Origin: a virus
Virus record (IMG/VR): IMGVR_UViG_3300022690_002056
Location: 1 to 46,806 of that record
DNA: 46,806 nt
Strand: one strand, 5' to 3'
The translations under genes and the position numbers were made by a program. The notes below the pieces were generated by a model. The model was not told the origin of the DNA and made no database searches. It worked only from the letters and a program-made list of their open reading frames with translations. This document shows positions 2,035-44,918 of the stretch, in pieces; the stretch's first letter is position 1, and each line of letters starts with the position of its first letter.

Positions 2035-2035
2035 T

Positions 2036-5239: not shown

Positions 5240-5241
5240 AA

Positions 5242-5997: not shown

Positions 5998-6386
5998 TGG
6001 CCGCTCAATTCATCATCTTCAAAGAGGAATCAGACCAGGACTTAGCCATTGAGAATGGCGATTTTGTACTTCTGGAGGATCAGGACGCTATTGTTCAACA
6101 GGTGGGTACTGTACTCAGACAGGCTAAATTTGACTGGTTTCTTGATCTGGATGAAGGCTTAAGATATCTGGACGCTGATGAGCAGGAAAGACAGATTCTG
6201 GGCGCTCCGAATTTAAGCCTTGAGAATGAAACGGAAATCATTGAGAAAATCAACGGAGTTTTCGGGGTGGTTTCTCTGATTGAACTGAATGCTGAATTTC
6301 TGAATGATAATACCACATTCAATATCACCGCAACAGTCACCACCATTTTTTCAACTATACCGCTAACGGTATCTGTGACAATATAA
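5997..6386 (+). CDS. Baseplate wedge protein, gp25/GpW-like
   Basis: A 129-residue protein with the gp25-like layout: an N-terminal 'DLAIENGDFVLLEDQDAIVQ' segment, then a helix VGTVLRQAKFDWFLD, then DEGLRYLD, and a final strand-rich region. The pattern 'v...l.t.kgewf.d...G..y' is typical of GPW/gp25 wedge proteins. In all contractile injection systems this protein starts the wedge and contacts the sheath. It lies next to the J-like wedge gene, its usual neighbour. Its start overlaps the previous stop by one base (TAATG). Confidence 0.75.
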   Translation: MAAQFIIFKEESDQDLAIENGDFVLLEDQDAIVQQVGTVLRQAKFDWFLDLDEGLRYLDADEQERQILGAPNLSLENETEIIEKINGVFGVVSLIELNAEFLNDNTTFNITATVTTIFSTIPLTVSVTI

Positions 6387-6387
6387 T

Positions 6388-7818
6388 ATGCCTGTAATAT
6401 TTGATGAAAACGGCCTGGTTATTCAATCTCTGGCTGAAATAAAAGAAGAGATAAAAAAGGGATATACTGTAGATGGTGTCCCGAGAAAAGGCTATCTTCA
6501 GCATTACGGTGTGGGTACTCAGTTAGGAGATGAGACCAATATCGGTAAAAATCTCTCCATTTATGCTGAGCGGGAACAACTGCTTCAGGAGAAAATAGAG
6601 GCGGTCAATGATTCACCCTACAGAGCTACGGCAATCGGTATCTCGTTAGACAGAACTCTGGAGGCTATCGAACTTCAGAGACAGGGAGGATTACCCTCAA
6701 CCGTTATAGTGTATGCCGCCGGAACACCATCCACTGTTGTAGCGGCTGAGGATTTAAGAATGTCTGTGGAGGGAACCGGGGCTTTATTCTTCAATACAGC
6801 CGGATTCACTCTTGGTTCCCTGGTTGATGAATCGGTGGATACTCTTACTCGTATCAGTACTACCGCAACCGTCACCATCGGCGGCGGTCATTCATTTCCT
6901 CTGGACAGCTTTGTTTTTATCGAAGGGGCTGAACAGGAGGAATTTAACGGATTACAGAAAATCACAGCTGTTACAGCCACCACTTTTGATTATGAACTGA
7001 TCGGAGTTCTGCCGGGAACACCGGCCACCGGAACCATCATAGTCAGGGAAGCCACACCGTTTAACGCTGAATCAGTTCTGAACGGGCCTATCCAGGCGCT
7101 TGACGGTGCTATCAATACCATTGCCACCGCTGTTAGTGGAATCAATCGGGTGGAAAACGCTGATGATGCTGTTTTAGGAAGACTGACTGAAACCGACCCT
7201 GAAGTCAGAATCAGAGCAGATGAAAGTCTGGCGATTTTAGGAGCGGCTACAAGCGCCGCTATCAGAGCTAAATTACTGGATATAACCGGAGTGACTTTTG
7301 CTCAGGTATTTCAGAATGTAACTGATTTTACCGATACCAACGGTCTGCCTCCTCACTCCATCCGGGCTGTGGTTTCCGGAGGAGCGGATAATGATATTTT
7401 CAATACTCTGTTTATCGAGGCTGTATCAGCCGGAATATTTATGGATGGTACGGAAACCACAACCATTATAGATAATGCCGGAGAACCTCAGCCTGTAGCT
7501 TTTTCCAGACCTGCTACCGTCAATATCTTTGTAGATGCCGGAAACGGTTTAACCACTAACAGTGATCCGGTACAAGGCACTGTATTTCCTGCAAACGGCA
7601 GCGATCTGATCATAGCGGCGCTTATCGCTATTCCGTTCCAGTTAGGAGGTGATGTCTGGCCTTCCCTGATTAAAGGAGCTATTGACTCTGTGGATGGAGT
7701 CATCACCAGCGATCCTGAGTTTGATATCACTCCGGCCCCCACCAATAAGGCCACTATAGTAATCCCCTCAACTGATCTGGCTGTGATCGACAGTGGAGAT
7801 ATTACAGGACTGCCATGA
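6388..7818 (+). CDS. Baseplate wedge protein J (gp6/gp47-like)
   Basis: A 476-residue baseplate J-like protein. The N-terminus (SLAEIKEEIKKGY... NIGKNLSIYAEREQLLQEKIEAV) is typical, and the central GLPSTVIVYAAGTPSTVV and later 'TDPEVRIRADESLAILGAATSAAIRAKLLDITGV' segments are hallmarks of the family. Residues about 151-220 are an inserted Ig-like domain resembling the one in the sheath. The protein forms the wedge ring with the gp25-like protein. It overlaps the next gene by 4 nt. Confidence 0.85.
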   Translation: MPVIFDENGLVIQSLAEIKEEIKKGYTVDGVPRKGYLQHYGVGTQLGDETNIGKNLSIYAEREQLLQEKIEAVNDSPYRATAIGISLDRTLEAIELQRQGGLPSTVIVYAAGTPSTVVAAEDLRMSVEGTGALFFNTAGFTLGSLVDESVDTLTRISTTATVTIGGGHSFPLDSFVFIEGAEQEEFNGLQKITAVTATTFDYELIGVLPGTPATGTIIVREATPFNAESVLNGPIQALDGAINTIATAVSGINRVENADDAVLGRLTETDPEVRIRADESLAILGAATSAAIRAKLLDITGVTFAQVFQNVTDFTDTNGLPPHSIRAVVSGGADNDIFNTLFIEAVSAGIFMDGTETTTIIDNAGEPQPVAFSRPATVNIFVDAGNGLTTNSDPVQGTVFPANGSDLIIAALIAIPFQLGGDVWPSLIKGAIDSVDGVITSDPEFDITPAPTNKATIVIPSTDLAVIDSGDITGLP

Positions 7819-8429
7819 CAGAGGTGATGATCTTACCGATTACAGACTATGTTGACGCAGCGCAGGATCGGGCGGTCTGGCAGTACAAAAATAAAGAGAA
7901 CTGGGATGCTTTAACGGAAGTCCATGTTGAAAGAATCCAGGTGTTGGAGGATGTCCTGGAACGACTGCTTAATGAACGCTCGTTAACCAATTCGGTCGGT
8001 GTTCAGCTTGACAGATTCGGGGCTGATTTCAATGTTTCCCGGGAGGGGAATAATGATGATGATTTCAGATTGAAAATCAGAATAGAAATCAATCTGAGCA
8101 GAAGCGCCGGACAGGTCAATGTTTTATTATTCAATCTGGCCAGACTGGTTGAACCCCGCGCGGTGGCTCTTCAGCAGATTTTTCCGTTGTTTATACTGAT
8201 GTGGATATTTGTTAATGACTTCAGTGAATTCAGCGTCTCTGATCTGGATATGATAAACCTCACTATGCAGGCCATAAAAGCGGCCGGTGTAGGTCTGGAA
8301 GTAGGATTACAATTGATCGGCAATGCTTTCATAGTCTCCGATAATCCTTCAGGAGGTGCAGCCGGTGAAGGTGTCGCCACTCTTATTGACGGCTCAGACG
8401 GCGGGGCGTTTGTTAAGAGTATTGTTTAA
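7815..8429 (+). CDS. Baseplate/tail protein (DUF2612-like)
   Basis: This 204-residue protein follows J and resembles DUF2612-type tail proteins. Features are an N-terminal helical region, LNERSLTNSVGVQLDRFGADFNVSREG (family: 'l.......a.G.qLD..G...g..R.g'), then DDDFRLKIRIEINLSRSAGQVNVLL. The C-terminal part has a low-complexity GGAAGEGVATLIDGSDGG end, perhaps an attachment for the fibre. It closes the forward tail operon; its stop overlaps the stop of the opposing gene by 4 nt (TTAA). Confidence 0.7.
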   Translation: MTEVMILPITDYVDAAQDRAVWQYKNKENWDALTEVHVERIQVLEDVLERLLNERSLTNSVGVQLDRFGADFNVSREGNNDDDFRLKIRIEINLSRSAGQVNVLLFNLARLVEPRAVALQQIFPLFILMWIFVNDFSEFSVSDLDMINLTMQAIKAAGVGLEVGLQLIGNAFIVSDNPSGGAAGEGVATLIDGSDGGAFVKSIV

Positions 8430-12867: not shown

Positions 12868-13063
12868 GTGTGTCCTCTGATATTGAATTATGAACTTATA
12901 GTAATATTGTTGTATTATATTTGTCAAGATAAATATAATATTTTAAACTATACATATATAATATAATTAAAACAATGATTAAAGTATATGACTAAGATAT
13001 ATATCTTTGCTATATTACTTAGATATATATCCAGGTAATATAATCTTAAAAGTAATCACACCA
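12868..13063. promoter_or_regulatory. Divergent control region with two GATATATATC dyads
   Basis: This AT-rich stretch lies between the minus-strand RHH-1 gene and the plus-strand replisome-organiser-like gene. Minus strand: a perfect TTGACA (12922-12927) sits 18 nt from TACTAT (12898-12903), with a TAATA/TATTA dyad across the spacer. Plus strand: two copies of GATATATATC (12996-13005 and 13022-13031), 26 bp apart centre to centre. The first lies in a 14-bp palindrome (AAGATATATATCTT). The second falls exactly in the spacer between TTACTT (13015-13020) and TATAAT (13039-13044). This geometry suggests repressor-controlled divergent promoters, perhaps the lysis-lysogeny or replication switch. 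Confidence 0.55.
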
Positions 13064-13585
13064 ATGAAAACAACTATCGGAATCACTACGGAACTACTCA
13101 AGGAAGTAGAGAAAAACAGTAAGGAACTGAGCTTTAAATTCAAAGGTGAGGGGGTGTCTTTTCTACTCAGAAACTCACTCAGGCATATTAAAAAAAGAGG
13201 GTATGATTCTTTTCTGATGAAAAATGAAGAGGTGCAGCTGACAACTCCTATGGATATTCCGGAGGAGCAGAACATAAAAGAGAGAATCTACAAAAAAAGT
13301 ATGACTAATCCTCTCTATCGCAATCCTTTAGTCTGGCGCTTATGGGTGTATTGTTTAGATAAAGCAGTGAATAAAAAAACAGTGATTTATGTCAATGCCT
13401 CAACACCTGTGACTGTTGAGGCCGGCTGTTTTATCACATCCAATGCAAAAACAGGGGAAGAGACAGGGCTGACTGATAAAAACTACAGAGTAGGAATAAA
13501 ACTGCTTACGGCTGAGAAGATGATAGAAACCATTAAACACCAAAGCCGGGCGGTTGGTACTGTTATTAAGATCGTGGGGTACTAA
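13064..13585 (+). CDS. Replisome-organiser-like DNA-binding protein
   Basis: A 173-residue protein starting at ATG 13064. Its C-terminal half matches the winged-helix N-domain of phage replisome organisers: NPLVWRLWVYCLDKA, then VEAGCFITSNAKTGEETGLTDKNYRVGIKLL, ending in GTVIKIVGY. The family pattern is 'W.wcL..A......L..GqfitGr..a...tGls....R..L..L.......i......iitI.nw'. Here that domain is at the C-terminus, and the first 80 residues are a charged helical region (TELLKEVEKNSKELSFKFKGEG), so it is either a permuted short form or a regulator using the same fold. It would bind origin or operator DNA. A diverged copy of its last 27 codons lies at 14020-14103. Confidence 0.55.
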   Translation: MKTTIGITTELLKEVEKNSKELSFKFKGEGVSFLLRNSLRHIKKRGYDSFLMKNEEVQLTTPMDIPEEQNIKERIYKKSMTNPLYRNPLVWRLWVYCLDKAVNKKTVIYVNASTPVTVEAGCFITSNAKTGEETGLTDKNYRVGIKLLTAEKMIETIKHQSRAVGTVIKIVGY

Positions 13586-14448: not shown

Positions 14449-14940
14449 TTAAAACGGAGTATCATCATCCGGGAACTCCTCATCTTTAACCTTTGATGTC
14501 ATGGTTTCACCCTGTGGCGCTTCAGCAGTCTGATACCCGGGGTAATTGCTGGCTTTATCTGTTCCTCCTCCATATTGAGAGGCTCTAGTGCCTTGTGCCT
14601 GCCCCTGCGGTTTAGCGTCTAAGAACTGAATATTCCGGCCTAGAATCTCGGTAGTATATCTCTTGTTCCCCTCTTTATCCTGCCACTCTCTGGTCTGGAG
14701 ACTGCCCTCTAAAAACAGTTGAGACCCTTTCCGGCAGTATTGTGCCACTACATCAGCTTTCTTTTCCCATAGCACTATTTTATGCCACTCCGAACGTTCC
14801 TGTCTGTTGCCGGACTGGTCTTTATAATACTCACTTGTAGCCAGCGTGATATTCAGGACGGTTTTGCCTGACTGAGTCTGTCTCGGTTCAGGGTCTTTTC
14901 CCAAACGCCCGATTAAATATACTTTGTTAAGATTACCCAT
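14449..14940 (-). CDS. ssb: Single-stranded DNA-binding protein
   Basis: The start at ATG 14940 (MGNLNKVYLIGRLGKDPE) is preceded by GGGGA and gives the canonical SSB N-terminus; an upstream in-frame start adds 23 unlikely residues. The 163-residue protein has the OB-fold motifs (LNITLATSEYYKDQSG, SEWHKIVLWEKKADVVAQYCRKGSQLFLEG), the R-x-W-x-D segment and a Gln/Gly-rich linker. It ends with the acidic tip DDDTPF, which binds partner replication and repair proteins of the host. It would protect single strands during phage replication and recombination. Confidence 0.95.
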   Translation of the reverse strand: MGNLNKVYLIGRLGKDPEPRQTQSGKTVLNITLATSEYYKDQSGNRQERSEWHKIVLWEKKADVVAQYCRKGSQLFLEGSLQTREWQDKEGNKRYTTEILGRNIQFLDAKPQGQAQGTRASQYGGGTDKASNYPGYQTAEAPQGETMTSKVKDEEFPDDDTPF

Positions 14941-14950
14941 AATTTCCCCA

Positions 14951-14970
14951 ATAACGGTTATATACACAAT
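14951..14970. promoter_or_regulatory. Copy of dispersed early-region element upstream of ssb
   Basis: ATAACGGTTATATACACAAT lies 10 nt upstream of the ssb start. Read on the minus strand it gives TTGTGTATATAACCGTTAT, close to one half plus centre of the perfect dyad at 15571. Probably the promoter/operator of ssb, although it also overlaps the end of the next upstream frame. Confidence 0.4.
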
Positions 14971-14971
14971 G

Positions 14972-15286
14972 TCAGTCTTTATTTTGTTGTTGTCGTAACC
15001 AAACCACAATTGCTTCGATCCGTTCTAAAGTAGTATCTATAGACTGTTCTTTATTAAGAAGAATCGTGATGTCATTAACTTCTTGATGCAAAGAAAGAAT
15101 GGCCATACTGGAACTCCTTCGGGGGTTATCATGTTTGTGAAACAGTTTATCTAAATTCCCCTCTCGATAGGCGAAACTTGTATTTTTAGTATTTAACATT
15201 GTGTCCTTATTATTAATATTGCCAAAATAATATAGGGCTTCTTCAAAACTGAAGGCTTTGTGTGCATTCCCTAATCTGTATATCAC
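14972..15286 (-). CDS. Hypothetical protein, early region
   Basis: A 104-residue frame using GTG 15286, which sits 5 nt after GGGAGG and overlaps the previous stop (GTGA). A second possible start is ATG 15199 with AAGGACAC upstream. The product is charged and probably helical (SLHQEVNDITILLNKEQSIDTTLERIEAIVVWLRQQQ at the end) with no recognised domain. Confidence 0.5.
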   Translation of the reverse strand: MIYRLGNAHKAFSFEEALYYFGNINNKDTMLNTKNTSFAYREGNLDKLFHKHDNPRRSSSMAILSLHQEVNDITILLNKEQSIDTTLERIEAIVVWLRQQQNKD

Positions 15287-22770: not shown

Positions 22771-22823
22771 TCTTCCTCCTCATTGAATAATCCAGTAGCT
22801 TTTTCATAATTTTCTCTATTCAT
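22767..22823 (-). CDS. Possible 18-residue leader peptide
   Basis: A tiny frame (MNRENYEKATGLFNEEEE) starting right after GGAGGAGGA inside the end of the DciA-like gene and ending with an ATGA overlap to the next gene. It may serve to couple translation of the two genes rather than make a useful product. Low confidence because of its size. Confidence 0.3.
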   Translation of the reverse strand: MNRENYEKATGLFNEEEE

Positions 22824-23283
22824 TCCTCCTCCTTTTGATTTTAGCCATCCATCCGGCGAATGATGCCCTTAATTCGTCATCTTTTATATTCTTTGATACC
22901 TCACTGACCTTTTTTTCTTCTTCGCTCTCAAGTGGTCTTAAATGGTGTTTATGACCGTTTCTGATTTCAGGTGCTTTCAGCTGTTCTCCCACTCTGAAAA
23001 CAATCTTTGTTACTTTCCCTTCTCCCAATATAGCTTCAGACGCCATCAGATCAAGCATCTCCTGAATAAAATACTCCAGATGATGATGATAGGAAGCATC
23101 CTTAACCAGAATAAACAGAGTTTTATTCTCCAGTTTAAGAGGAGCGGTTTTGTTTTCCAGAGGAGCACCTATAATTATTTTCCAGTATTGTCTGATAATG
23201 CTGAAGTGCTGTAATGCGGTAAGACGTTCCGACTTAACCGCCGTTTTCAATGCGCTGTTCAGGGAGTGCGTGTCAGAAGTCAT
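22816..23283 (-). CDS. dciA: DciA / DUF721-like replicative helicase loader
   Basis: A 155-residue protein whose residues about 25-105 match the DciA (DUF721) domain: IIRQYWKIIIGAPLENKTAP, LKLENKTLFILVKDASYHHHLEYF, then EMLDLMASEAILGEGKVTKIVFRVGE. The family pattern is 'W..ivG..la.hs.P..l..g.L.V.v.ss.Wa.eL......il..lN..lg...v..i.fr.g'. DciA proteins help load or operate the DnaB helicase in bacteria lacking DnaC/DnaI. The C-terminal 45 residues are charged. It is in the same operon as the Rep_3 initiator, coupled to the gene before it (ATGA). Confidence 0.7.
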   Translation of the reverse strand: MTSDTHSLNSALKTAVKSERLTALQHFSIIRQYWKIIIGAPLENKTAPLKLENKTLFILVKDASYHHHLEYFIQEMLDLMASEAILGEGKVTKIVFRVGEQLKAPEIRNGHKHHLRPLESEEEKKVSEVSKNIKDDELRASFAGWMAKIKRRRNE

Positions 23284-24238: not shown

Positions 24239-24571
24239 TTATTTATCCCTCTGCTCAACAGCCTCATCAATAACAGGGCTGTAAGATAATGTGTCCGGAT
24301 TAAATTTCAATAATTTCTGATCTTTTAAACGAATTCTATCAAAACTCATTCCTAACAGTTCGGCAGCCTGAATAGGGATAGGCCCACTAAAAACACCTGC
24401 AAACCCTTCTGTATCCACTTTACAATCATAACACCAGATCATATGCACAAACTCAGACCATGCGATATTTGTCCCATTGCAACGATCACAGTCAATTTCA
24501 TATTCAGCCGGGGGCATAACATATATCCACTCACGTTTCTTAAGAGGTAGGAGCTTCTTATCTATTTTCAT
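24239..24571 (-). CDS. Conserved phage zinc-ribbon protein
   Basis: A 110-residue protein with CDRCNGTNIAWSEF and IWCYDCKVD, a C-x2-C/C-x2-C zinc ribbon (residues about 29-55), followed by GVFSGPIPIQAAELLGMSFDRI. This whole pattern ('mPPAeYei.CD.C.gtnitWSE......WC.dC..d.....GiF.GPIP......LG..fdRi') is one I recognise from phages; function unknown. It starts inside the end of rep (ATGA overlap), so it is co-translated with the initiator. Confidence 0.65.
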   Translation of the reverse strand: MKIDKKLLPLKKREWIYVMPPAEYEIDCDRCNGTNIAWSEFVHMIWCYDCKVDTEGFAGVFSGPIPIQAAELLGMSFDRIRLKDQKLLKFNPDTLSYSPVIDEAVEQRDK

Positions 24572-25833
24572 TGTTTATTTCCTAGTTCCTCAGCATCATA
24601 AATAATGGCGTTGTAACATGGTTTAAAAAGACTGAAAGATGTAAATACTTCCTTATAGGCATATTGCCTTACCTTCTCTTGATTTTCCGTTGTCAGTTTG
24701 GAGTATACCTTAATCAACGCCTCTGATGTTTCAAGCATGTGATTAAATTTCTGTTCCTCTGTCATGCTCTGGTACAGTTCTTTTGCAGCCTCATTCTCAG
24801 CGGTCCCAAGCGCCTGTTGTTTTGCTAAAGTTTCTTTGTCTTCAGGCGCTTCTAACAAAGACTGTGAATTATTCACAGATGCTAAAATCCGTTTCAGATA
24901 AGGGCCGGGATATGTAATATTTGAGCCTTGCTCTTCATTATCAGCACATATTTTTAAAGCTTGTTTAATTTGTTTATCAGAATATTGTTTTGTTATATCC
25001 TTAATCACTTTTGTTGTTATTTTAAGGTCTTTTAGTATTGTGTCAATACTATCTTCCTGGAATGGGAGTGTAATTTGTTCTATTGGAATATTCGGCAGAC
25101 TTAAGAATTTTTTAAATTTCGGATTTTTAGTAATATGAAAAATAATACTATGAATTGCCTGACCTTTTTTCTGTGTTTCCGGTTTAATTAAAATATCAGT
25201 CTGTTTATTTACTTCTTTAATAGCCGGTTGTAATACTCTACGGTTGAAATTTTTAAATTGCTTATATCTATCGGGAGCAATACCAAAATAATCTTTTAAT
25301 TTTGTTATAGTAGACTCCGGGGTTCTACCTATTTCTGGATTACTGCTTATAGTGGTCTTATAATCCCAACATAGTTCATAAAGCGCCCAGCCATATTGTC
25401 CTCCCTTATATTCTTTTTGAAGCTTTAAATTGATTTTAGAATATATTCTGGGATCACTTAAAGCCGGGATTAATTCAGGAGCAAAGGAAAAATAACATAT
25501 TTTATTGAATTTGCCGATTCTTACTCCAGCCAATAGGCTTAAACATCCCCACTCTTTTTCACGATCTTTTTCAAAAATGTTGTATTCCACAGATGTATCA
25601 CGTAGATTTTTCAACATTTTTTTAAGATTGTTAACACTATTAATGCCGGGGACATATTCTTTTAAGACATCAATATTTACTTTATGTATAGATTGTGTTT
25701 TTAATTCATCAAAGGCTTCTGTTAGTAAAGCATTGAATAAATGCTGTTCCAAAAGAGTTATTTTGTGGGTTATCTGTATAATGGCGCTATGTTTTATCAC
25801 AGTTTTTTTAGTAATCATAATTATTATTTTCAT
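24568..25833 (-). CDS. rep: Rep_3-family plasmid replication initiator
   Basis: A 421-residue protein (start ATG 25833, or 25818 giving MITKKTVIKHSAIIQITHK). Residues about 10-235 match the two winged-helix domains of iteron-binding Rep_3/RepB initiators: KHSAIIQITHKITLLEQHLFNALL at the start of WH1, GWALYELCWDYK..., then FGIAPDRYKQFKNFNRRVLQPAIKEVNKQTDILI in WH2. The extra C-terminal 180 residues are helical and charged. As usual for this family, the iterons lie just upstream (25967-26070) with dyads between them and the gene. It would bind the iterons as monomer, open the origin and recruit helicase, and repress itself as dimer. This is the basis for calling the element a phage-plasmid. Confidence 0.85.
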   Translation of the reverse strand: MKIIIMITKKTVIKHSAIIQITHKITLLEQHLFNALLTEAFDELKTQSIHKVNIDVLKEYVPGINSVNNLKKMLKNLRDTSVEYNIFEKDREKEWGCLSLLAGVRIGKFNKICYFSFAPELIPALSDPRIYSKINLKLQKEYKGGQYGWALYELCWDYKTTISSNPEIGRTPESTITKLKDYFGIAPDRYKQFKNFNRRVLQPAIKEVNKQTDILIKPETQKKGQAIHSIIFHITKNPKFKKFLSLPNIPIEQITLPFQEDSIDTILKDLKITTKVIKDITKQYSDKQIKQALKICADNEEQGSNITYPGPYLKRILASVNNSQSLLEAPEDKETLAKQQALGTAENEAAKELYQSMTEEQKFNHMLETSEALIKVYSKLTTENQEKVRQYAYKEVFTSFSLFKPCYNAIIYDAEELGNKQ

Positions 25834-25853
25834 GGGCGGTACAACTATTGCCT

Positions 25854-25872
25854 TCTCACAACAGTTGTGAGA
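25854..25872. promoter_or_regulatory. Dyad immediately upstream of rep
   Basis: TCTCACAAC-A-GTTGTGAGA, a perfect 9-bp inverted repeat 20 nt before the rep start. Rep_3 plasmids usually carry such an operator for Rep dimers here. It could also form an RNA hairpin in the rep leader. Confidence 0.55.
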
Positions 25873-25907
25873 CTTATCTATTAAAGGGCTTTAATTTCTG
25901 GGATAAA

Positions 25908-25958
25908 TTTAAAGTACTTTAAAATGGTGGCAAAAGTCAAGAAGTATTTTGTCACCAT
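25908..25958 (-). promoter_or_regulatory. rep promoter with two dyads
   Basis: Two inverted repeats lie between the iterons and the rep leader. The first is the perfect palindrome TTTAAAGTACTTTAAA (25908-25923). The second is ATGGTG-g-CAAAA (25924-25935) with TTTTG-t-CACCAT (25947-25958), 11 of 12 pairs. On the minus strand TTGACT lies between the arms of the second dyad, and TACTTT follows about 18 nt later inside the first, so both dyads overlap the probable rep promoter and are good operator candidates. Confidence 0.5.
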
Positions 25959-25966
25959 GTTCAAAT

Positions 25967-26070
25967 AAATCTGTACACCTCTAGTAAGAAATCTGTACAC
26001 CTCTAGTAAGAAATCTGTACACCTCTAGCATAAATCTGTACACCTCTAGCATAAATCTGTACACCTCAAT
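25967..26070. repeat. Iteron array of the replication origin (5 direct repeats)
   Basis: Five direct repeats of AAATCTGTACACCTCTAG start at 25967, 25989, 26011, 26032 and 26053, with period 22, 22, 21 and 21 bp, i.e. two turns of the helix. The first four share all 18 bases; the fifth changes after CTGTACACCTC to AATT. This spacing and the neighbouring Rep_3 gene are diagnostic of an iteron-controlled plasmid origin. A possible DnaA box (TTATCCAGC, 7 of 9 matches to TTATCCACA) begins at 26083. Confidence 0.9.
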
Positions 26071-26108
26071 TTTTTCTATACCTTATCCAGCTTATCTTTA
26101 CGGCCCCC

Positions 26109-26160
26109 TTAAAACTCTTAAAACTTTTAAAACAAATTAAAAGGTATTAAAACCTTAAAA
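26109..26160. repeat. Helically phased TTAAAA tracts (bent/unwinding DNA) in origin
   Basis: Six copies of TTAAAA begin at 26109, 26118, 26127, 26137, 26147 and 26155, a spacing of 8-10 bp close to the helical repeat. Phased A-tracts bend DNA, and AT-rich repeats next to iterons are where plasmid origins open. The rest of the 25834-26392 gap is AT-rich with no gene. Confidence 0.6.
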
Positions 26161-26249
26161 AGCAGTTGTTGTTGGTATAATAAATTATTTTATTTATTTT
26201 CCTTTCAGAATAAAAAAGGGTAGGATTTTAAGGAGAGTGGGGAATTTGG

Positions 26250-26292
26250 AATTGAGGTGTAGACCATATTGTTGATGTCAACAAAATGGTCT
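26250..26292. promoter_or_regulatory. Inverted half-iteron and 31-bp dyad at far side of origin
   Basis: AATTGAGGTGTA (26250-26261) is the exact inverse of the end of the fifth iteron (TACACCTCAATT, 26060-26071). It adjoins a dyad: AGACCAT-A-TTGTTGA (26261-26275), spacer TG, TCAACAA-A-ATGGTCT (26278-26292), 14 of 15 pairs. The pair could let Rep loop the origin, and the dyad could control the following outer-membrane protein gene. Confidence 0.5.
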
Positions 26293-27620: not shown

Positions 27621-27983
27621 TCAACCTTCCATATCAATCTGAAATCTGATCTGCCGGATGGTTCTGTTTAATTCCTTCTGATCCGTGATTCGTTCCAGAA
27701 GGATAACCAGTATTTTATACAACCTGTTCACATGAGGATTGACAGTATTTTTTTTCAGACTGTGTATACCACCTGTTCTTGTGGTGCCTAAGATTTCGGC
27801 CAATTGTGCCTCATTGGAGCATTTTAGTTTATCCATCAGAATATCGATGGTTTCAATTTCAATCCCGAACATTTTTTTATACTCACATGCTGTAAGTTCA
27901 GGATGTTTTTTATTCAGGTGCGCTTTAAGGCCGAAGAAGGTTTTCTTACATATCTCACAATGGTTTTTAGGTTTTAAGGTCAT
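27621..27983 (-). CDS. MucR/Ros-like zinc-finger regulator
   Basis: From ATG 27983 (MTLKPKNHCEICKKTFFGLKAHL) the product has 120 residues; starts at 28001 or 28037 are also possible. CEICKKTFFGLKAHLNKKHP is a C-x2-C...H-x4-H finger followed by ELTACEYKKMFGIE, close to the MucR/Ros pattern ('C..C.k.f..L..Hl...H.lt..eYr..w'). Residues about 55-85 (EAQLAEILGTTRTGGIHSLKKN) may form a second helix-turn-helix of the XRE sort. A DNA-binding regulator is likely. Confidence 0.6.
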   Translation of the reverse strand: MTLKPKNHCEICKKTFFGLKAHLNKKHPELTACEYKKMFGIEIETIDILMDKLKCSNEAQLAEILGTTRTGGIHSLKKNTVNPHVNRLYKILVILLERITDQKELNRTIRQIRFQIDMEG

Positions 27984-27984
27984 T

Positions 27985-28380
27985 TTAATGATTTTGCCCA
28001 TAATACTGTTTACAAAGCCAAGATACAGAACCTCCATCGCTTTTTATATCCGATTGGATTGAATCGATACAACCTTCAGCATTTCTCAGTTTATTTTTAA
28101 GGTCTGTATTCTTTAATGACATTACAGACAAGTCATCTGTGATTTTTTTTAATTTGTTTTCTGTATTCTGTAGTTTTGCTCTCAGCTCTTCATAATTCCC
28201 GTCAGAGGCTATCTGGCGGCCTGAGTCGTGCCAGGGGACGAAGGTGGAACTAACATTAACTTGTTTTATATGAAATTGGTAAATCCAACCGCCAGGTACA
28301 CGCATGACTGTCATAAATGCACTCTCTTCATCTGCTAATATAAATATTTCATGTAGTTTCATCTTGTAGATATCTTTCAT
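27985..28380 (-). CDS. Hypothetical protein with coiled coil
   Basis: A 131-residue protein. An N-terminal strand-rich domain contains GGWIYQFHIKQVNVSSTFVPW (the 'gWi...w......sstFVP' pattern is known to me from phage hypotheticals). A coiled coil of about 45 residues follows (EELRAKLQNTENKLKKITDD...). It is separated from the zinc-finger gene by one base. Function unknown. Confidence 0.55.
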   Translation of the reverse strand: MKDIYKMKLHEIFILADEESAFMTVMRVPGGWIYQFHIKQVNVSSTFVPWHDSGRQIASDGNYEELRAKLQNTENKLKKITDDLSVMSLKNTDLKNKLRNAEGCIDSIQSDIKSDGGSVSWLCKQYYGQNH

Positions 28381-31571: not shown

Positions 31572-32105
31572 TTGGCTATTACTTCTTATAAACTGGCAGC
31601 GATTAAAGCAGATTATGAAGCCGGTATTGATACAAAAAGTAACATAGCTGTAAAATATAAGATTAATAGGCTGTCATTAGCCCGTAATGCTAAAAAACAT
31701 GGTTGGGAATATGGCAAAAGTAACGCAAATGTAACAGAGCTTATTTCTAAGAATGCTGCTAAGAGAATAGTAGAAGAAGAAACCAATAAATTAATAGATT
31801 ATACCACAAGACACCTTAAATATACCCGTACATTGCGCACTCTGTCCGCTGTCACTACATCAGAATTTTCCAAATATGTAAAAGCAGATAAAAACTATTC
31901 TAAATTAAAAAAACAGGAGGCGGATAAACTCCTGGTTATCCAAAGGACACTTGAAGTCAGCGCCAGAACACATGATCTGATTTATAAGTCTGAGCGTCTT
32001 GCAATGGGGCTCGATCAAGGTATATCAGGTGGAACTACAGACATAGATTCAAAAGTACAGACCCGGATGGAGAGAATTAAAGATGCTCACAGACAAACAG
32101 GCTGA
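31572..32105 (+). CDS. terS: Terminase small subunit
   Basis: A 177-residue protein with a TTG start (after GGGGTAGG). Residues 1-50 form a helix-turn-helix (IKADYEAGIDTKSNIAVKYKINRLSLARNAKKHGW) of the kind that begins small terminases ('a..dy..g......iA..y.is...l...a...gW'). A central helical region follows (YTTRHLKYTRTLRTLSAV) and an oligomerisation tail. It precedes and overlaps the large subunit by 23 nt. It would recognise the packaging site on concatemers. Confidence 0.8.
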   Translation: MAITSYKLAAIKADYEAGIDTKSNIAVKYKINRLSLARNAKKHGWEYGKSNANVTELISKNAAKRIVEEETNKLIDYTTRHLKYTRTLRTLSAVTTSEFSKYVKADKNYSKLKKQEADKLLVIQRTLEVSARTHDLIYKSERLAMGLDQGISGGTTDIDSKVQTRMERIKDAHRQTG

Positions 32106-33801
32106 TTTTATCCTGGATACTCTGGGTAATTATATAGAAGTCGGTCATGGAGCGGAGCTTCAGCCATACTTTGAGCCGATTATAGAAGCTATAGACAGCG
32201 GTAAATATCAGAGAATCGCTATTAAAGCCTGCCATGCCGTCGGTAAAACATTCACCATGGCACGTATCGGTGATGCCATTATGGGATCTTATAATGAAGT
32301 CAAGGTGATTACTACAGCCCCTACTTACAGGCAGGTCCATGATCTTCTCTGGAAAGAATGGGCTACGGCTTATAATAATAAAATACCTGATCTCAAAAGA
32401 GGCCGTCTGAATGAAACCGAACTCTGGATAAATTCAGAAACATTCGCCAGAGGGTTCAGTCCTCAGAAAAGGGTTCAGTCAGAATCCGGACAAGGGACTG
32501 ATTCTGTATTTCAGGGATACCACGGAGGATATATGACAGTGGTTATCTTTGATGAAGCCACAGGGGTTGAGCGCCAGTTCTGGGAACAGGCTGAAGGGCT
32601 TCTGAATGCCGGATATCGTGTAATCTTTATTGTTATCGCTAATCCCACCAGTCGGAATTGTGACTTTTTCAAGTGTTTCAGTAACCGCCTCTGGAAAACT
32701 TTCTCAATCACCTGTTTTGATTCTCCTAATCTTAAAGCTGTTGATATTAATTCAATTGAGGATATAGAAAAAGAAGTGGAGATAATCAGTCATTTTTCAG
32801 ATGATGAAGCTTTAGACCGTCTGAATTCTTATCCGTCTGTTGTTCCATATTTAATCAATACGCGATGGGTAATTGAAAAAGCTATTGAATGGGGGGTGGA
32901 TCATCCTTTATTTATGGGGAAAGTATTAGGTGAATTTCCGGACGCTGATTCTGATGTACTGGTATCTGATCAGGATATACTTAACTCATGGGCGAGAACT
33001 GATAATGATCTTTCAAAAGAAACTACAGGATATATAGGCCTTGATGTCGCCCGTTTCGGTATAGATAAATCAGTATTATCCTCTATCATTAAAAACAATC
33101 AGATCGCCCGTAAATCCATGTCTAAACAGGACACAAATGAAGTTGTGGGGTATACTCTTAAGTTTATTGAAGAACATCAGAATGAATATCCCGATATACA
33201 ATTGTGGAAGCTGGCTGTTGATGGTGGATTCGGTCATGGAGTTATCGACATTCTTAAAGAATATAAAACAGATTCCGCCGAAGATGAAGCCGGAGCGAAA
33301 GCACATGGAATCCTCAGTAATGTTGAAATTCTTGAAATCAACTTCGGGTCTACTGATTGGGTGCTGTTTCATTGCGGGTGGAAGGGGGATAGTAAGTATT
33401 TTTCTACTCAACAAGCCGCTAAAATGAAAAAAAAAGCCCGTGTGATTCAGGAAGACAGAGAGAATTATACTAACTTCAAAGCTAAAATGTTTGATCTGCT
33501 TTCCAGAGACATAAAAAAGTCCTTAAAGCTGTTGAAAGATGATATTTATAAAAAACAGTTGCCGACAATCAAGACAAAGGTGGATAGTAAGGGCAGACTG
33601 AAAATAGAATCCAAAGAAGATTATAAAAGCAGAACAGGTGAAACTTCACCTGATGAAGCGGATTCTTTGGCTTTGGCTAATTTTGCCCGTTATTTTGCTC
33701 TTACGGCATCTACAATGGCGGACGCAATAGAAAAGGCTATGAAACGGGGTGATAAATTATTTGACAGATCAAGTTCTCTTTATGGGAGATTACAAAGATG
33801 A
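32083..33801 (+). CDS. terL: Terminase large subunit
   Basis: A 572-residue motor-nuclease. The ATPase has Walker A at residues 50-56 (CHAVGKT) and Walker B TVVIFDEA (152-159), with the coupling motif VIANPTS near 185. The nuclease half begins YIGLDVARFGIDKS (first Asp, about 322) and includes a late DEADSLALANF (Asp, about 523), as in RNase H-like terminase nucleases. Length is normal for large terminases of this kind. It pumps DNA into the prohead and cuts it. The ATPase has the K-A-x2-A-V-G-K-T style of many phage and prophage terminases. Confidence 0.95.
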   Translation: MLTDKQADFILDTLGNYIEVGHGAELQPYFEPIIEAIDSGKYQRIAIKACHAVGKTFTMARIGDAIMGSYNEVKVITTAPTYRQVHDLLWKEWATAYNNKIPDLKRGRLNETELWINSETFARGFSPQKRVQSESGQGTDSVFQGYHGGYMTVVIFDEATGVERQFWEQAEGLLNAGYRVIFIVIANPTSRNCDFFKCFSNRLWKTFSITCFDSPNLKAVDINSIEDIEKEVEIISHFSDDEALDRLNSYPSVVPYLINTRWVIEKAIEWGVDHPLFMGKVLGEFPDADSDVLVSDQDILNSWARTDNDLSKETTGYIGLDVARFGIDKSVLSSIIKNNQIARKSMSKQDTNEVVGYTLKFIEEHQNEYPDIQLWKLAVDGGFGHGVIDILKEYKTDSAEDEAGAKAHGILSNVEILEINFGSTDWVLFHCGWKGDSKYFSTQQAAKMKKKARVIQEDRENYTNFKAKMFDLLSRDIKKSLKLLKDDIYKKQLPTIKTKVDSKGRLKIESKEDYKSRTGETSPDEADSLALANFARYFALTASTMADAIEKAMKRGDKLFDRSSSLYGRLQR

Positions 33802-34097
33802 GTAAAGCAGATTATTGTGTGGATTGTGTCTATTACAAAAGAGAAACTGGCAGATGTCTTCGTTATCCTCCGGCTTTTAATGGTGAAGACAAAAACGGAG
33901 AACCTTATTACGGATGGCCGCTTGTAAGGCCGGATCATTGGTGTGGTGAGTTTAAAAGGGATGAAGCGGAGTTTATAATTACGGATTCATCTGAAATTCT
34001 GACAGAACCAGAGCCACAACCCGAAGAAAAAAGCATTTTAGATAAAGGCAAAGAGTTTTTCAAATCATTTTCTTCAGATGGTAAAAAAGAAAAATGA
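33798..34097 (+). CDS. Cys-rich small protein after terminase
   Basis: A 99-residue protein. The first 55 residues hold CVDCVYYKRETGRCLRYPP and WCGEF, a C-x2-C-x7-C...C pattern that occurs in small phage proteins near terminase or portal. It probably binds zinc or an iron-sulfur cluster. An acidic, then Lys-rich tail follows. The start overlaps the terminase stop (ATGA). Confidence 0.55.
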   Translation: MSKADYCVDCVYYKRETGRCLRYPPAFNGEDKNGEPYYGWPLVRPDHWCGEFKRDEAEFIITDSSEILTEPEPQPEEKSILDKGKEFFKSFSSDGKKEK

Positions 34098-34582
34098 AAT
34101 ATTGGTTTGATACGGAATTTATAGAAAGACCTTATACTATTGATCTGATCAGCATCGGCATTGTATCAGAAGACGGTAGAGAACTTTATCTTATCAATAA
34201 TGAGTTTGATAGCTCGAAGGCTTCTGACTGGGTTAAAGAGAATGTCATTAGCCAATTGCCAGAACCAGAAGATAGTATTGAACTATGGATGAGTAAAGGA
34301 CAGATTGCTAATGAAATTAAAAACTTTGTTGGTTCTGACAAACCTGAATTTTGGGCATACTATGCTGATTATGATTGGGTGGTGTTTTGTTGGCTTTTTG
34401 GAACTATGATGGATTTGCCTAAAGGCTGGCCGATGTATTGCCGGGATATTAAACAATGGGCTGATCAATTGGTTAATCGTGGATTACCAGCACAATCAGA
34501 TGAAGAACACCATGCTTTGGCGGATGCCCGTTGGAATAAAACAGCTTGGGAGTTTTTATCTGAAATAGAAAAAGGGAAATAA
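34094..34582 (+). CDS. DEDDh 3'-5' exonuclease (RNase AS-like)
   Basis: A 162-residue exonuclease: motif I FDTEFIE (Asp6, Glu8), motif II in YADYDWVVFCWLFG (Asp), and motif III HHALADARW (His and Asp), giving DEDDh. Closest by pattern is the 'polyadenylate-specific 3'-exoribonuclease AS' family, common in phages. It could trim RNA or DNA ends. It sits in the middle of the packaging genes, overlapping both neighbours by 1-4 nt, and looks AT-richer than terminase and portal. Confidence 0.8.
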   Translation: MKYWFDTEFIERPYTIDLISIGIVSEDGRELYLINNEFDSSKASDWVKENVISQLPEPEDSIELWMSKGQIANEIKNFVGSDKPEFWAYYADYDWVVFCWLFGTMMDLPKGWPMYCRDIKQWADQLVNRGLPAQSDEEHHALADARWNKTAWEFLSEIEKGK

Positions 34583-36189
34583 TGTTCAGAGGCATTGTAG
34601 ACCATAACGGCAAACTGATCAGAGCGGATAACTGGTTTAATCCTGTTACAGGATATGGCGGTGTGGATGATAACATGGAGAACACCATGTTTCTGCCGTC
34701 CAAACTGCTTCAGCAGGCCGAGCTTGATGATCTGTATGAAAGTAACTGGGTTGTCGGGCGCGGGGTTGAACTGCCTGTTAATGACCGCCTTTCCAAAGGT
34801 ATTGACTTTCTGACGAATGATGATGATACCGATAACCGCAGAAAAGAGGTTGAAGACCTTGAACAGATCATAAAAGATACAAAAATGTGGTCACATCTGA
34901 TTACAGGTCAGTATTGGGGACGGTTATTCGGTGGGGCTATAATCTATTTTGATTATGGTGATGATACGCAGGTCGGTACCGCTTCATTTAATGATGGTAC
35001 TTTGGGGACAAAAACCCTTAGTTTTGAGCTGCCTGATTCTCAACGTGGAATTCCTAATAAAATATGGGTTGTGGATCGTTTTTATGCTACACCGCTTTCC
35101 TATTATACACCCGGCGTTCATGGTGCTGACCATCCTAAACTGGGTGAGCCTGAAATATACCAGCTTACAATACAGACTACAGGATATTCGAGACTGGCTT
35201 TAGCCCATGAGTCAAGATGTATTGTGATTGACGGCTTACCTATATCCACACGGAAAAGAGCGCAAAATCATATGTGGGGTAATTCCGTTGTGCAGAGAGT
35301 ACATGACATCTGTAAATTTTTCGGGGTCAGTCTTAAAGCAATGGCGGATACATTTGAGGACTTTAATTTTAAAAGTCTGGAGATGGAGAATCTGACAAAA
35401 CTGATAGAAAAGGGGTCTGCTGAAGTGATAGCTACGGCTGCAGCTCTGGCTGCTAAAAACGCCCATAATCAGAATATAGGGATCCATGCCCCCGGTACTA
35501 AATTAGTTAAATCCACAACTTCAGTGGCGGGATTACCCGAAATGGCGCTTTTAAATTCCAATTTTCTGGCCGGAGCCTGGGGCATTCCTGATTCCCGTTT
35601 TTTTTCAGCTAAAGGCGGCGCTCTCGGAGGATCAGCCGCTCAATCCGATGAACGTAATTATTTTCAGAGATTAAGACACGAACAGACGCATATAGACCGT
35701 CCGCATATTGAACGGTTTTTATTTCTGCTCGGCTTTGAGCCTGGAAACTTTCCTTTTGTCTTTCCGCCATTATCTGAAGCAACCCAACTTGAGGAAATTG
35801 AGACTAGGGATAGACAGGCTGAAGTGGATATTAAATATATTCAGAACGGAGTATTACTTCCTGAAGAAGTGGCTGTTTCCCGTTTTTCAACCCCTGAGAC
35901 TAAACTTAATCAGACTATAGTTGATTTTGAAGCCAGGGAGCAGATGACGGATGATGAAGAGAACCTGGAGAAAGCGCCGGATAAAGAACCTGTTGGATTT
36001 GAGTCAGACCCGAAGAAAGAAGAGCGGAAATCAGATGATACGGAAAAGGAAGAAGAGACAAAAGAAGATAACAGAGCTGATACTGCCATAGAAAAATCCC
36101 TGATTAAAGTGAAGATCAAAGAAAATATTATTAAATATCAATCTGACAATAATCCGGTTTATAAAGTTATTGTAAAAGGAACTGAATGA
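34582..36189 (+). CDS. Portal protein (DUF1073-like)
   Basis: A 535-residue portal of the DUF1073 type: N-terminal DDLYESNWVVGRGVELPVNDRLSKG, the ITGQYWGRLFGGAIIYFDYGDD segment, then 'SRCIVIDGLPI' and WGNSVVQRVHDICKFFGVSLKAMADTFEDFNFKSLEMENL, and AAKGGALGG-type loops. The last 80 residues are an acidic and Lys-rich helical tail. The portal forms the twelve-fold gate of the capsid. It follows terminase and precedes head genes, the usual order. Confidence 0.85.
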   Translation: MFRGIVDHNGKLIRADNWFNPVTGYGGVDDNMENTMFLPSKLLQQAELDDLYESNWVVGRGVELPVNDRLSKGIDFLTNDDDTDNRRKEVEDLEQIIKDTKMWSHLITGQYWGRLFGGAIIYFDYGDDTQVGTASFNDGTLGTKTLSFELPDSQRGIPNKIWVVDRFYATPLSYYTPGVHGADHPKLGEPEIYQLTIQTTGYSRLALAHESRCIVIDGLPISTRKRAQNHMWGNSVVQRVHDICKFFGVSLKAMADTFEDFNFKSLEMENLTKLIEKGSAEVIATAAALAAKNAHNQNIGIHAPGTKLVKSTTSVAGLPEMALLNSNFLAGAWGIPDSRFFSAKGGALGGSAAQSDERNYFQRLRHEQTHIDRPHIERFLFLLGFEPGNFPFVFPPLSEATQLEEIETRDRQAEVDIKYIQNGVLLPEEVAVSRFSTPETKLNQTIVDFEAREQMTDDEENLEKAPDKEPVGFESDPKKEERKSDDTEKEEETKEDNRADTAIEKSLIKVKIKENIIKYQSDNNPVYKVIVKGTE

Positions 36190-40845: not shown

Positions 40846-41865
40846 ATGCCTCAGGCTCTCTCTCAACATAGAAAACAATTACTCAGAAACAGAGCCTCCC
40901 AAGGGAAACGCCCTATCGAACCTCTCTTTCCTGATTTAATAGGCGTTTCCTATTCTAAGAAACTGAAGGGGGAAATAGACAGAGGATTTAAGTTAGTTGA
41001 AGACTTACTTTTTCCTGTATTGAAAGATGATGTTGAACGTCTGGACTCTGTAAGAGCCGATATCGGAAATGATTCGAATATTATTCAGTCTGTAATAGCG
41101 AAGATATTAAATAAGTTCTTCGGAGGTATGTTCAGTAAAGAAAATCCTAATCTGACTAAATACGGTAAGGCTGTAAAAAAGAAACTGGTTGAGCCGATGC
41201 TTAAGCAGACTGACAGGCATAATAAAACGCAGTTCTCTAAGTCTTTTAAACGGATATCCGGGGTTGATCCTCTGGCTTTTGAACCGGAATTAAATGAGTT
41301 CCTGGATGTGGCGGGAGAACAGAATGTGAATCTGATAATCACTCAGAGCAGTGTTTATTTTGATTCCATTCAGGAAATGACTAATCGGGCTTTGAGAAAA
41401 GGAACCGGTGTTGCTGAATTGAGAAACGATATTATTCAACTGACCGGAACCACTAAGAGCAGAGCGCAGCTGATAGCTATTGATCAGGTGCAGAAATTAA
41501 ACGCTGATCTGGAAGGTCAGAGACAGCAGAACAACGGCTTAACCCGTTATATCTGGCGTACAAGACAGAATGCAAGGGTGCGGTCTAAGTCTAATTCAGG
41601 TGGTGTCAGCGATCATAAAGGACTGGAAGGGGCTGTGATTGATTGGAACTTTCCCCCGATTACGGTTTTAACCGGGAAAAGGGCCGGAGAACGTAATCAT
41701 GCCGGAATGGACATAAACTGCAAATGCTGGAGTGAGGCTGTCATTGAAGACCTCACAGGAAAAAGCTCAAAAACACTCGAAAAAGGCGAAGCCGTCACAC
41801 GAAAACTAATCAGTCAGGGGCGTATTCCCGGCTATAAACTACCGAAGATATCTAAGGCGTCATAA
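40846..41865 (+). CDS. Head morphogenesis protein (MuF-like)
   Basis: A 339-residue protein. The N-terminal 190 residues are helical. The C-terminal region is the MuF domain: STKSRAQLIAIDQVQKLNADLEGQRQ-type segment ('..RA..iArte....l....... q..aGi..y.W....D.rvR..H..ldG'), WRTRQNARVRSKSN, HKGLEGAVIDWNFPP and the closing NHAGMDINCKCWSE ('..pG..inCrC'). MuF proteins are minor head components that bind portal and may be injected. Unusually, no separate toxin domain follows. Confidence 0.85.
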   Translation: MPQALSQHRKQLLRNRASQGKRPIEPLFPDLIGVSYSKKLKGEIDRGFKLVEDLLFPVLKDDVERLDSVRADIGNDSNIIQSVIAKILNKFFGGMFSKENPNLTKYGKAVKKKLVEPMLKQTDRHNKTQFSKSFKRISGVDPLAFEPELNEFLDVAGEQNVNLIITQSSVYFDSIQEMTNRALRKGTGVAELRNDIIQLTGTTKSRAQLIAIDQVQKLNADLEGQRQQNNGLTRYIWRTRQNARVRSKSNSGGVSDHKGLEGAVIDWNFPPITVLTGKRAGERNHAGMDINCKCWSEAVIEDLTGKSSKTLEKGEAVTRKLISQGRIPGYKLPKISKAS

Positions 41866-42912
41866 ATGATCACATCACGAATGCGGATTAAATTAGGTAC
41901 GGAATTTTCAATAACGCTGCCCAACGGCAGGGAGAAGGATTTCGAGGTTGAGAATCTGCATCAGCAGGATACGGATGGTAATCCGATAGTATTTGACGGT
42001 CTGAAATGCCGGATTATGAATTCAACATCCTGGAGTCCTCCCGTCGCTTATGTCATTGATGATGTCAATCATATAATCAAAATCAAATTCACCGACTCCA
42101 CTATTCCTATGACCACTCCTCTCACTTTATTGGTGCAGGGCTGTGTCAGTACGGTTGTGGAGGAAAAAGTGACTAATATACTGCTTGATACTGAAAAATT
42201 CAAAGAGGGAACTGCCGCTGTCGCTTCTGATTTATGGTCATATATCAAAAAATCAATGTATTTATTCGGAGGAGCTTCAATCTTTCTGTATTTCATCAGT
42301 GGTTCTGTATTCGGCGACTGGATACTTAATGTATGGTCTAATCTGAATGCCGGACAGGTGATTCAGACTACTCAGAAGATGGATACCAGAATACTGACTA
42401 ATAGACATGATGTTTATAAATCCGCGGCTTTCCTGGATTATAATGCCGCCTACAAACGGAATAACGGGCGTGAGGCTGATCTGACTGAACTTTATAATGT
42501 TGTCGGCAATGGAACTTTTGTCACTAAATATCTGATTATAGATACATATGGTAAAACCCTGTTATTGGATCATGGTGACGCTCAGAATTATTGCCGGAAT
42601 ATCGGCGGCAGACTGCTTGAAGTTGAGGAACTGAATGCCTATCTGGCCGGTAAATATCTGACTTTGGAGAATATGGCCTGGCCTATCCGTCTGTATGAGG
42701 AAACACCTGAATGGACGGCGACAAATGTCTCATGGGATAATTACTGGGTATATGTAAAAGATTCGGAAGGGTTAAGTCTTTCTCATTCCGGAGTATCGTT
42801 CGGCGATTCACAGACCTTAACAAACGGCTATATCCTGAAGGAAGCTGATGACGGGTATGAGTTTGCTTTCAGGTGTGGATTTACAGAAGATTTCTACATA
42901 AGGTCAAGATGA
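41866..42912 (+). CDS. Membrane-anchored protein with lectin/FGE-like C-terminal domain
   Basis: A 348-residue protein directly after MuF (TAAATG). Residues 1-105 form a strand-rich domain; 131-155 (YLFGGASIFLYFISGSVFG...) is one membrane helix; 156-225 is a linker. Residues about 236-348 look like a C-type-lectin or formylglycine-enzyme-like fold: DAQNYCRNIGGRLLEVEELNAYL ('A..yC...g.rLp...E'), PEWTATNVSWDNYWVYVKD and EFAFRCGF. Such folds bind ligands at the envelope. It would put a binding domain outside the inner membrane. It does not look like a virion protein and its place inside the head operon is odd. Confidence 0.5.
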   Translation: MITSRMRIKLGTEFSITLPNGREKDFEVENLHQQDTDGNPIVFDGLKCRIMNSTSWSPPVAYVIDDVNHIIKIKFTDSTIPMTTPLTLLVQGCVSTVVEEKVTNILLDTEKFKEGTAAVASDLWSYIKKSMYLFGGASIFLYFISGSVFGDWILNVWSNLNAGQVIQTTQKMDTRILTNRHDVYKSAAFLDYNAAYKRNNGREADLTELYNVVGNGTFVTKYLIIDTYGKTLLLDHGDAQNYCRNIGGRLLEVEELNAYLAGKYLTLENMAWPIRLYEETPEWTATNVSWDNYWVYVKDSEGLSLSHSGVSFGDSQTLTNGYILKEADDGYEFAFRCGFTEDFYIRSR

Positions 42913-43436
42913 AAGTGCCTATTCCGTTTTTCGGACTGGTGATGAAAACCATTGAAACTGATCTTGTTCAGAAATTCTTAGGAGTTTTCAGACAACCGCA
43001 GGATATACATAGAGTATTGATAATAATTCCCATTACATTATTTATATCTCATACGGTTTTTCTGAAGAATCAGCCCGGCTTGGCTGTTATCACAGGTAAT
43101 CTTCAACGCCCGGAACAGATATGGGTAAGCCTGATGGCTTTTCTGGTATTATTTATCTCCTGTTGGGCTGTTTTCTCCAGTGCGTTTAATCCTGTACTTT
43201 ATGTCAGGCAGATTGTTTTTGCTATGTGGACATGTCTGCTTCACAGATTATCTTATGGACTGGAGGTATTCGGAACTCCTTATCTGACTTGGATTTCATT
43301 TGCAGCTCTGATTTCTTTTCTTCCTTTTGCCTGTACCGGATTAAGGCCTGATCAGCTTTATACGAAATATAAAGCCGATAAAGAACTCCAGGCGGTACAA
43401 CATCCGGCTGTCATTACGAATAAGGATGCGGCATGA
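42909..43436 (+). CDS. Multi-pass membrane protein
   Basis: From ATG 42909 (ATGA overlap with the preceding gene) a 175-residue protein with about four membrane helices (VLIIIPITLFISHTVF, VSLMAFLVLFISCWAVF, IVFAMWTCLLHRL, WISFAALISFLPFACTG) and hydrophilic ends. It is the middle gene of a coupled three-gene membrane cassette within the head operon. It could be a lysis or exclusion protein. No family is recognised. Confidence 0.6.
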   Translation: MKVPIPFFGLVMKTIETDLVQKFLGVFRQPQDIHRVLIIIPITLFISHTVFLKNQPGLAVITGNLQRPEQIWVSLMAFLVLFISCWAVFSSAFNPVLYVRQIVFAMWTCLLHRLSYGLEVFGTPYLTWISFAALISFLPFACTGLRPDQLYTKYKADKELQAVQHPAVITNKDAA

Positions 43437-43774
43437 AATATTTATGGACAGTGTTTCTAATGTATTGTCCTGGTCTTCTGTATGCTTTTTCTTTGAGTGA
43501 TGGAGCTGAAGCCTATACTGCGATTATTGAGACTCATCACAGAATGAGTAATATGTATTTTTATGCCGCTATGGGGCTTTTGGGATTATCCATTACCGCT
43601 ATCGGCAGAATAAGAATGAGAGGCGGACAGATGAGACCGGGCTTAAGTCTGACTGTCAGTATTTTTCTGCGGACCGTTAATATCATCTGTATTATATTAC
43701 TGGCTCTGCATTTTTTGCCTGATACCGGATCAATTATTGATTGGGGTCTGGAATTCATAGGGAGATTATTTTAA
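43433..43774 (+). CDS. Small membrane protein with signal-like start (holin candidate)
   Basis: A 113-residue protein, ATGA-coupled to the gene before it. It begins with a signal-anchor or signal peptide (MKYLWTVFLMYCPGLLYAFS) and has two more helices (MYFYAAMGLLGLSITAIG and VNIICIILLALHFLP). Size and topology allow a holin, but the sequence does not identify it. Third gene of the cassette, ending 2 nt before the prohead protease. Confidence 0.55.
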   Translation: MKYLWTVFLMYCPGLLYAFSLSDGAEAYTAIIETHHRMSNMYFYAAMGLLGLSITAIGRIRMRGGQMRPGLSLTVSIFLRTVNIICIILLALHFLPDTGSIIDWGLEFIGRLF

Positions 43775-43776
43775 AA

Positions 43777-44904: not shown

Positions 44905-44918
44905 CCCATAAATAAACA

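Follow-up and report, generated by a model that had tools for sequence, protein, structure and literature searches.

The viral record from IMG/VR analysed here in its whole length of 46,806 bp (the window) probably represents a temperate contractile-tailed phage that its host maintains as a circular plasmid, that is, a phage-plasmid. A Rep_3-iteron origin lying inside a phage genome that is most likely unintegrated makes persistence in a bacterial host as a plasmid the most likely way of life of this virus. Among the features of phage-plasmids, virion and packaging genes as well as a plasmid-type replication gene were found in the window; a partition system is common, though not universal, in such elements.

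Three relatives were compared with the window: an unannotated metagenomic IMG/VR contig (3300022707_005361; L002, also G001), which covers roughly half of a genome, without the head module, and the two self-closing contigs G003 (42,786 bp) and G004 (51,545 bp). Viral scans with Rep, portal, baseplate J and hub as queries returned the same few contigs each time, and the scan with the lipoprotein query returned none. No host was identified by portal and Rep scans of genome contigs, no lysogen or plasmid record was found, and the phage, plasmid and bacterial-genome collections searched yielded no close relative of the lineage.

Replication initiator

24568..25833, minus strand: rep, Rep_3-family replication initiator of 421 amino acids (Pfam PF01051 and PF21205 above cut-off), with WH1 at residues 12-155, WH2 at residues 175-234 and a C-terminal extension to residue 421
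24239..24571, minus strand: small cysteine-rich ORF that overlaps the stop codon of rep, no Pfam match

Both winged-helix domains of the Rep_3 family were found by Pfam in the rep product (Rep3_C, PF21205, E = 2.6e-18; Rep3_N, PF01051, E = 2.2e-13; both above the curated cut-off), so that the search against PF01051 proposed in the preliminary description bears out the complete Rep_3-type initiator reported there. The NCBIfam model repM_Acin matched at E = 4.8e-20, under its own cut-off. Alignment with the L002 Rep suggests that translation probably starts at the ATG at 25818, and the small cysteine-rich ORF is likely co-transcribed with rep.

The nearest annotated relatives of Rep are plasmid Rep proteins, the Phaeobacter initiators being ~36% identical over half of the protein, and at E of 1e-5 its matches comprised 1157 plasmid records against 4 phage records. 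Annotated phages gave weak partial matches only; the phage matches listed for Rep, up to an E of 10, included no P1 or mycobacteriophage record. The initiators of the Rep_3 plasmids listed (Phaeobacter, Acinetobacter RepM, F RepE) share the domains of the window Rep, but are at most ~37% identical to it over half the protein and come without the virion module of the window. A weak similarity of the Rep C-terminus to RpbA (E = 0.0023) was not relied upon, being probably a low-information resemblance between helices, and an AlphaFold model of Rep was discarded as too poor (mean pLDDT 44).

Organisation and conservation of the origin

25967..26073, minus strand: five iterons upstream of rep, core GAGGTGTACAGATTT in rep-sense orientation, spacing 22, 22, 21 and 21 bp
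25926..25957, minus strand: candidate rep promoter, block GTGACAAAAT..CTTGACTTTTGCCACC in the gap between iterons and rep, conserved with L002
25855..25871, unstranded: perfect 17-bp palindrome CTCACAACAGTTGTGAG in the rep leader, not conserved in L002
26083..26091, plus strand: weak match to a DnaA box, TTATCCAGC, with two mismatches and at 24 nt from the first iteron
26108..26160, unstranded: AT-rich 9-bp repeats of the CTTAAAACT type (TRF score 46), with similar 9-mers in L002
26161..26210, unstranded: AT-rich block (TATAATAAATTATTTTATTT and flank) conserved with L002, outer edge of the origin

The iteron array was detected by TRF as five copies of a 21-nt repeat (score 166). Its 15-bp core GAGGTGTACAGATTT is present in five copies without mismatch and at no other site in the window even when 3 mismatches are allowed, and none of 100 shuffles gave five matches. 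The five 18-base iterons of the preliminary description accordingly stand in number and in their period of 21-22, the unit being refined to 21-22 bp with a perfect 15-bp core. Leftward early and replication genes lie on one side of the array and rightward packaging and virion genes on the other, in agreement with the position between early and virion genes given earlier for rep and the iterons.

The conserved block between iterons and rep, with TTGACT at 25935-25940, may serve as the rep promoter, the palindrome is a possible operator, and the 9-bp repeats are a candidate unwinding element. The AT content reaches 73% over 180 nt in both the window and L002. The features of an iteron-type origin found here are several ~20-bp direct repeats next to rep and, flanking the iterons, an AT-rich region that contains short repeats. 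GC skew was dropped as origin evidence: its minimum lies near the origin, but third-position skew shows that it tracks gene orientation and is thus uninformative.

The L002 Rep is 62% identical to that of the window, and L002 carries its own five-iteron array of the same spacing with the core GCGGTGGACAGATTT. Alignment of the two origins gave a common order of AT-rich block AAATAAAATAATTTATTATA..AACAACAAC, 9-bp repeats of the TTTTAAGAG type, five iterons, CTTGACTTTTGCCAC block and rep. The site TTACCCACT of L002, likewise with two mismatches to the DnaA box, lies 24 nt from its first iteron, and the AT-rich block is on the same side of the iterons as in the window although the neighbouring gene is ~0.9 kb away. 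The iteron cores are identical in all five copies within each genome and differ between the genomes at two positions, a joint change of all copies that is expected under selection on, or homogenisation of, initiator-binding sites. Judged by this comparison of sequences, Rep and the iterons would make up a functional replicon.

Beyond the origin, the proteins of L002 are roughly 50-93% identical to those of the window, and the gene order is the same through rep and the iterons into a syntenic tail module, a homologue of DciA being shared as well. The same iterons and gene order, which the preliminary description had suggested looking for in other elements, are thus matched by L002 in layout, but not at the two core positions.

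Virion, regulatory and other genes

348..8429, plus strand: tail/baseplate module, from a truncated DUF3383-type gene; beyond the contig ends, it leads on to the head module in relatives
32083..36189, plus strand: packaging module, with putative terminase large subunit (32083-33801) and portal (34582-36189)
40846..46671, plus strand: head module, with minor head protein, DUF2213, cement protein and major capsid (DUF2184)
27621..28037, minus strand: small zinc-finger Ros/MucR-like protein (E = 0.019; L002 orthologue 1e-4; both below cut-off)

Protein families of the portal, the capsid, the minor head protein, the tail and the baseplate were all recognised in this contractile-tailed phage genome. 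The portal matched PF06381 at E = 1.1e-43, and the terminase large subunit is a putative assignment made by position and a weak nuclease/ATPase-type match only. P1 did not appear among the named organism groups in the matches listed for the capsid. The Ros/MucR-like protein is a weak candidate for the repressor. Neither a partition pair nor a tandem centromere-like array was found in the window; a ParB_N domain at 29621-30841 is part of a DNA methyltransferase and was rejected as a partition gene.

Several other genes were recorded. Two genes with signal-peptide-like starts and without a Pfam family, for a putative lipoprotein (18636-19973, plus strand) and a putative outer-membrane protein (26309-27085, plus strand), are conserved across the window and its relatives G001, G003 and G004; their products may act in surface exclusion or lysogenic conversion. 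In the packaging module, the portal is directly preceded by an ORF (34094-34582, plus strand) to which a match to an RNase AS-type 3'-5' exoribonuclease (NCBIfam NF033638, best E 2.1e-48) was assigned from sequence. Three ORFs with apparent membrane-spanning segments lie within the head module (41866-43774, plus strand), in an order conserved in G003 and G004.

Self-closing relatives and the missing arc

Exact terminal repeats of 113 bp and 114 bp are carried by G003 and G004, respectively, and can be taken as the mark of circular assembly, a short physical terminal repeat being the alternative; in G003 one reading frame appears to run across the contig join. The window contig has no terminal repeat and is not closed. 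It begins inside the DUF3383-type gene and stops just beyond the capsid gene, and its gene order is a circular permutation of those of G003 and G004. By extrapolation the missing arc would measure ~3.0 kb (G003) or 3.2 kb (G004), and the window would represent about 94% of a roughly 50-kb genome. In both relatives the arc holds virion-type genes only, which leaves little room for an integrase or a host junction.

No tyrosine integrase was found in the window, G001 or G004 by six-frame HMM search, and among the window ORFs scanned no recombinase or transposase was recognised, only weak HTH-type matches, so that the lack of both integrase and transposase noted in the preliminary description holds for the window. 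The permutation, the virion-only arc of ~3 kb and the lack of an integrase in the window together suggest that the contig most likely derives from an unintegrated molecule, be it a plasmid prophage, replicating phage DNA or virion DNA, which sequence alone cannot separate. Two tyrosine recombinases were found by the six-frame search in G003, and integration may therefore occur in some members of the group. These recombinases (12189-13133 and 14343-15359) both lie among virion genes of G003 (L010), which also encodes an Mpi-type serine DNA invertase at 4626-5264 (7.7e-91).

The Rep_3 gene of G003 is divergent (22% identity to the window Rep in alignment; Pfam 6.8e-25). Upstream of it lie three iteron-like repeats spaced 22 and 21 bp, matched in quality by 0 of 300 mononucleotide shuffles, a lenient control, and followed downstream by a TTGACTTT element that also occurs in the iteron-rep block of the window. 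G003 further encodes a ParA-like ATPase with the Walker motif KGGVGKT (NCBIfam ParA_partition, 9e-8, under the model's cut-off). No Rep_3 gene was found in G004, and because this contig is self-closing all the same, circularity by itself is not diagnostic.

DciA homologue and other replication proteins

22816..23283, minus strand: DciA (DUF721) homologue, candidate helicase loader (Pfam PF05258, E = 2.2e-10, above cut-off)
13007..13585, plus strand: DnaD-like protein (PHROG 2514, E = 7.3e-8)
14449..15009, minus strand: single-strand DNA-binding protein (Pfam SSB, E = 5.7e-38)

The DciA homologue, located ~1.3 kb downstream of rep, is the most unusual extra of the element. An orthologue is present in L002 (5964-6440), where DUF721 is again above cut-off, and none turned up in G003, in G004 or in the four plasmid records examined. 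For the window protein, PHROG gave no match, and neither did tblastn against 50,697 phage and 72,556 plasmid records (E of 0.1); a weak match to a DciA DUF721 domain was obtained in the PDB (E = 0.0039), and its AlphaFold model was discarded as too poor (mean pLDDT 43). DciA is the ancestral bacterial loader, several times replaced by the phage-derived DnaC/DnaI (PMC5109545). A limited literature search, which is not proof of absence, returned no report of a phage-borne DciA. We tentatively propose, as a possibility short of an even chance, that this phage-plasmid replicon combines its Rep_3-iteron origin with a DciA-type loader of its own, a virus thus carrying and using the ancestral loader of bacteria.

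Comparison with known systems

The virion module of DUF1073, DUF2213, DUF2184, DUF3383, baseplate J and spike occurs on plasmid records, not all members being present in each. The complete circular 42-kb plasmid record NZ_CP039232 of Piscirickettsia salmonis (L023) shares with the window DUF3383, baseplate J, spike, terminase and a plasmid initiator, the shared virion proteins being ~27-34% identical; unlike the window, its initiator is TrfA, ParA/ParB are present, no Rep_3 is reported and DciA is lacking. No paper naming Piscirickettsia together with phage-plasmids was found in a limited literature search. The circular plasmid NZ_LK031773 of Criblamydia sequanensis has a syntenic head-tail module of the window's kind and a ParA gene, but differs in size (89.5 kb), in its metal-resistance cargo, in the lack of Rep_3 and in the presence of a DnaB-like helicase and an integrase. 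As a separate observation, the structural module of this Criblamydia plasmid (L005/L008/L009) is a nearly complete contractile-phage set, and the plasmid is possibly an overlooked phage-plasmid. A Klebsiella record with the same virion kind carries an integrase and an excisionase. These records and the lack of Rep_3 in G004 suggest that replication and maintenance modules swap under the virion type, Rep_3 being present in some members only.

P1 RepA, as cited in PMC7157519, binds direct-repeat iterons, and deletion of repA in the mycobacteriophage Miko spares lytic growth and destabilises lysogeny (PMC7157519). Both phages resemble the proposed state of the window in that a phage genome is kept by a plasmid-type initiator; the mycobacterial RepA phages have parABS, none of which was seen in the window.

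Discussion

In iteron plasmids, Rep monomers bind the iterons and open an AT-rich region, loading of the replicative helicase follows, and copy number is limited by autoregulation together with Rep-iteron pairing. In the present phage, the five iterons would be occupied by Rep monomers, which would open the AT-rich 9-mer region next to them, perhaps aided by DnaA, and the DciA-like loader, perhaps with the DnaD-like protein, would recruit DnaB helicase to the Rep origin; the host enzyme is proposed because no helicase gene was recognised in the window. By analogy, Rep and the iterons may set copy number via autoregulation and iteron pairing, and a phage regulator would keep the virion genes off until induction.

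Plasmid maintenance is favoured by the Rep_3 domains, the five perfect cores and the origin layout conserved with L002, by the second Rep_3 type of G003 with its iteron-like repeats and ParA-like gene, by plasmid records of the same virion kind with TrfA/ParAB or ParA, by analogy with the Miko repA deletion phenotype (PMC7157519), and by the circular permutation relative to G003 and G004 with no integrase in the window, G001 or G004. Against it stand the lack of a partition pair in the window, the weak repressor candidates, the failure to find a lysogen and the absence of Rep_3 from G004. The episome of the preliminary description is thereby supported in part, by Rep, the iterons, the most likely unintegrated molecule, the ParA-like gene of G003 and the plasmid records of the same virion kind; its maintenance as a prophage and its control of copy number by Rep are kept as proposals, and no partition system was recognised in the window. 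Its new phage-plasmid group is narrowed to a new lineage of a known kind, since iteron phage-plasmids are known (P1) and this virion kind is already in plasmid databases.

Rather unlikely, in our estimate, is a Rep_3-iteron unit that works as a lytic origin, in a phage that is virulent or whose lysogeny is independent of it, with no stable plasmid state. Such an origin would fit a window with no partition genes found, in which Rep is the sole initiator recognised and rep has SSB, DciA-like, DnaD-like and recombination genes around it, as is typical of an early lytic module, as well as a virion-kind relative, G004, without Rep_3; but Rep_3 with iterons is overwhelmingly a plasmid system, as the record counts for Rep indicate, G003 adds a ParA-like gene, and plasmid records of the same virion kind exist.

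We regard as improbable an integrative prophage caught excised, with its integrase in the missing arc and Rep acting only after excision. The integrase and excisionase of the Klebsiella record, the two tyrosine recombinases of G003 and the unclosed window contig would allow it, against which the short arc holds virion genes only in both circular relatives and the window, G001 and G004 have no integrase. A chimeric assembly, in which a plasmid rep sequence was misjoined to a phage contig, is conceivable for a metagenomic contig without terminal repeat and is nearly refuted by G001, a separate contig that keeps the gene order through rep, iterons and tail module at the protein identities given above.

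Overall, the maintained phage-plasmid proposed here belongs to a metagenomic contractile-tailed lineage in which a conserved virion module appears to be combined with changing plasmid-type replicons, of either of two divergent Rep_3 types, or with none, so that the step between plasmid maintenance and other lifestyles could be compared inside one group, with the conserved origin as a compact test fragment once a host is known. The DciA homologue near this origin raises the question of by what route the replicative helicase is recruited to such replicons in bacteria that depend on DciA and, if the proposal is true, viral use of DciA would reverse the usual story of phage-derived DnaC/DnaI replacing bacterial DciA.
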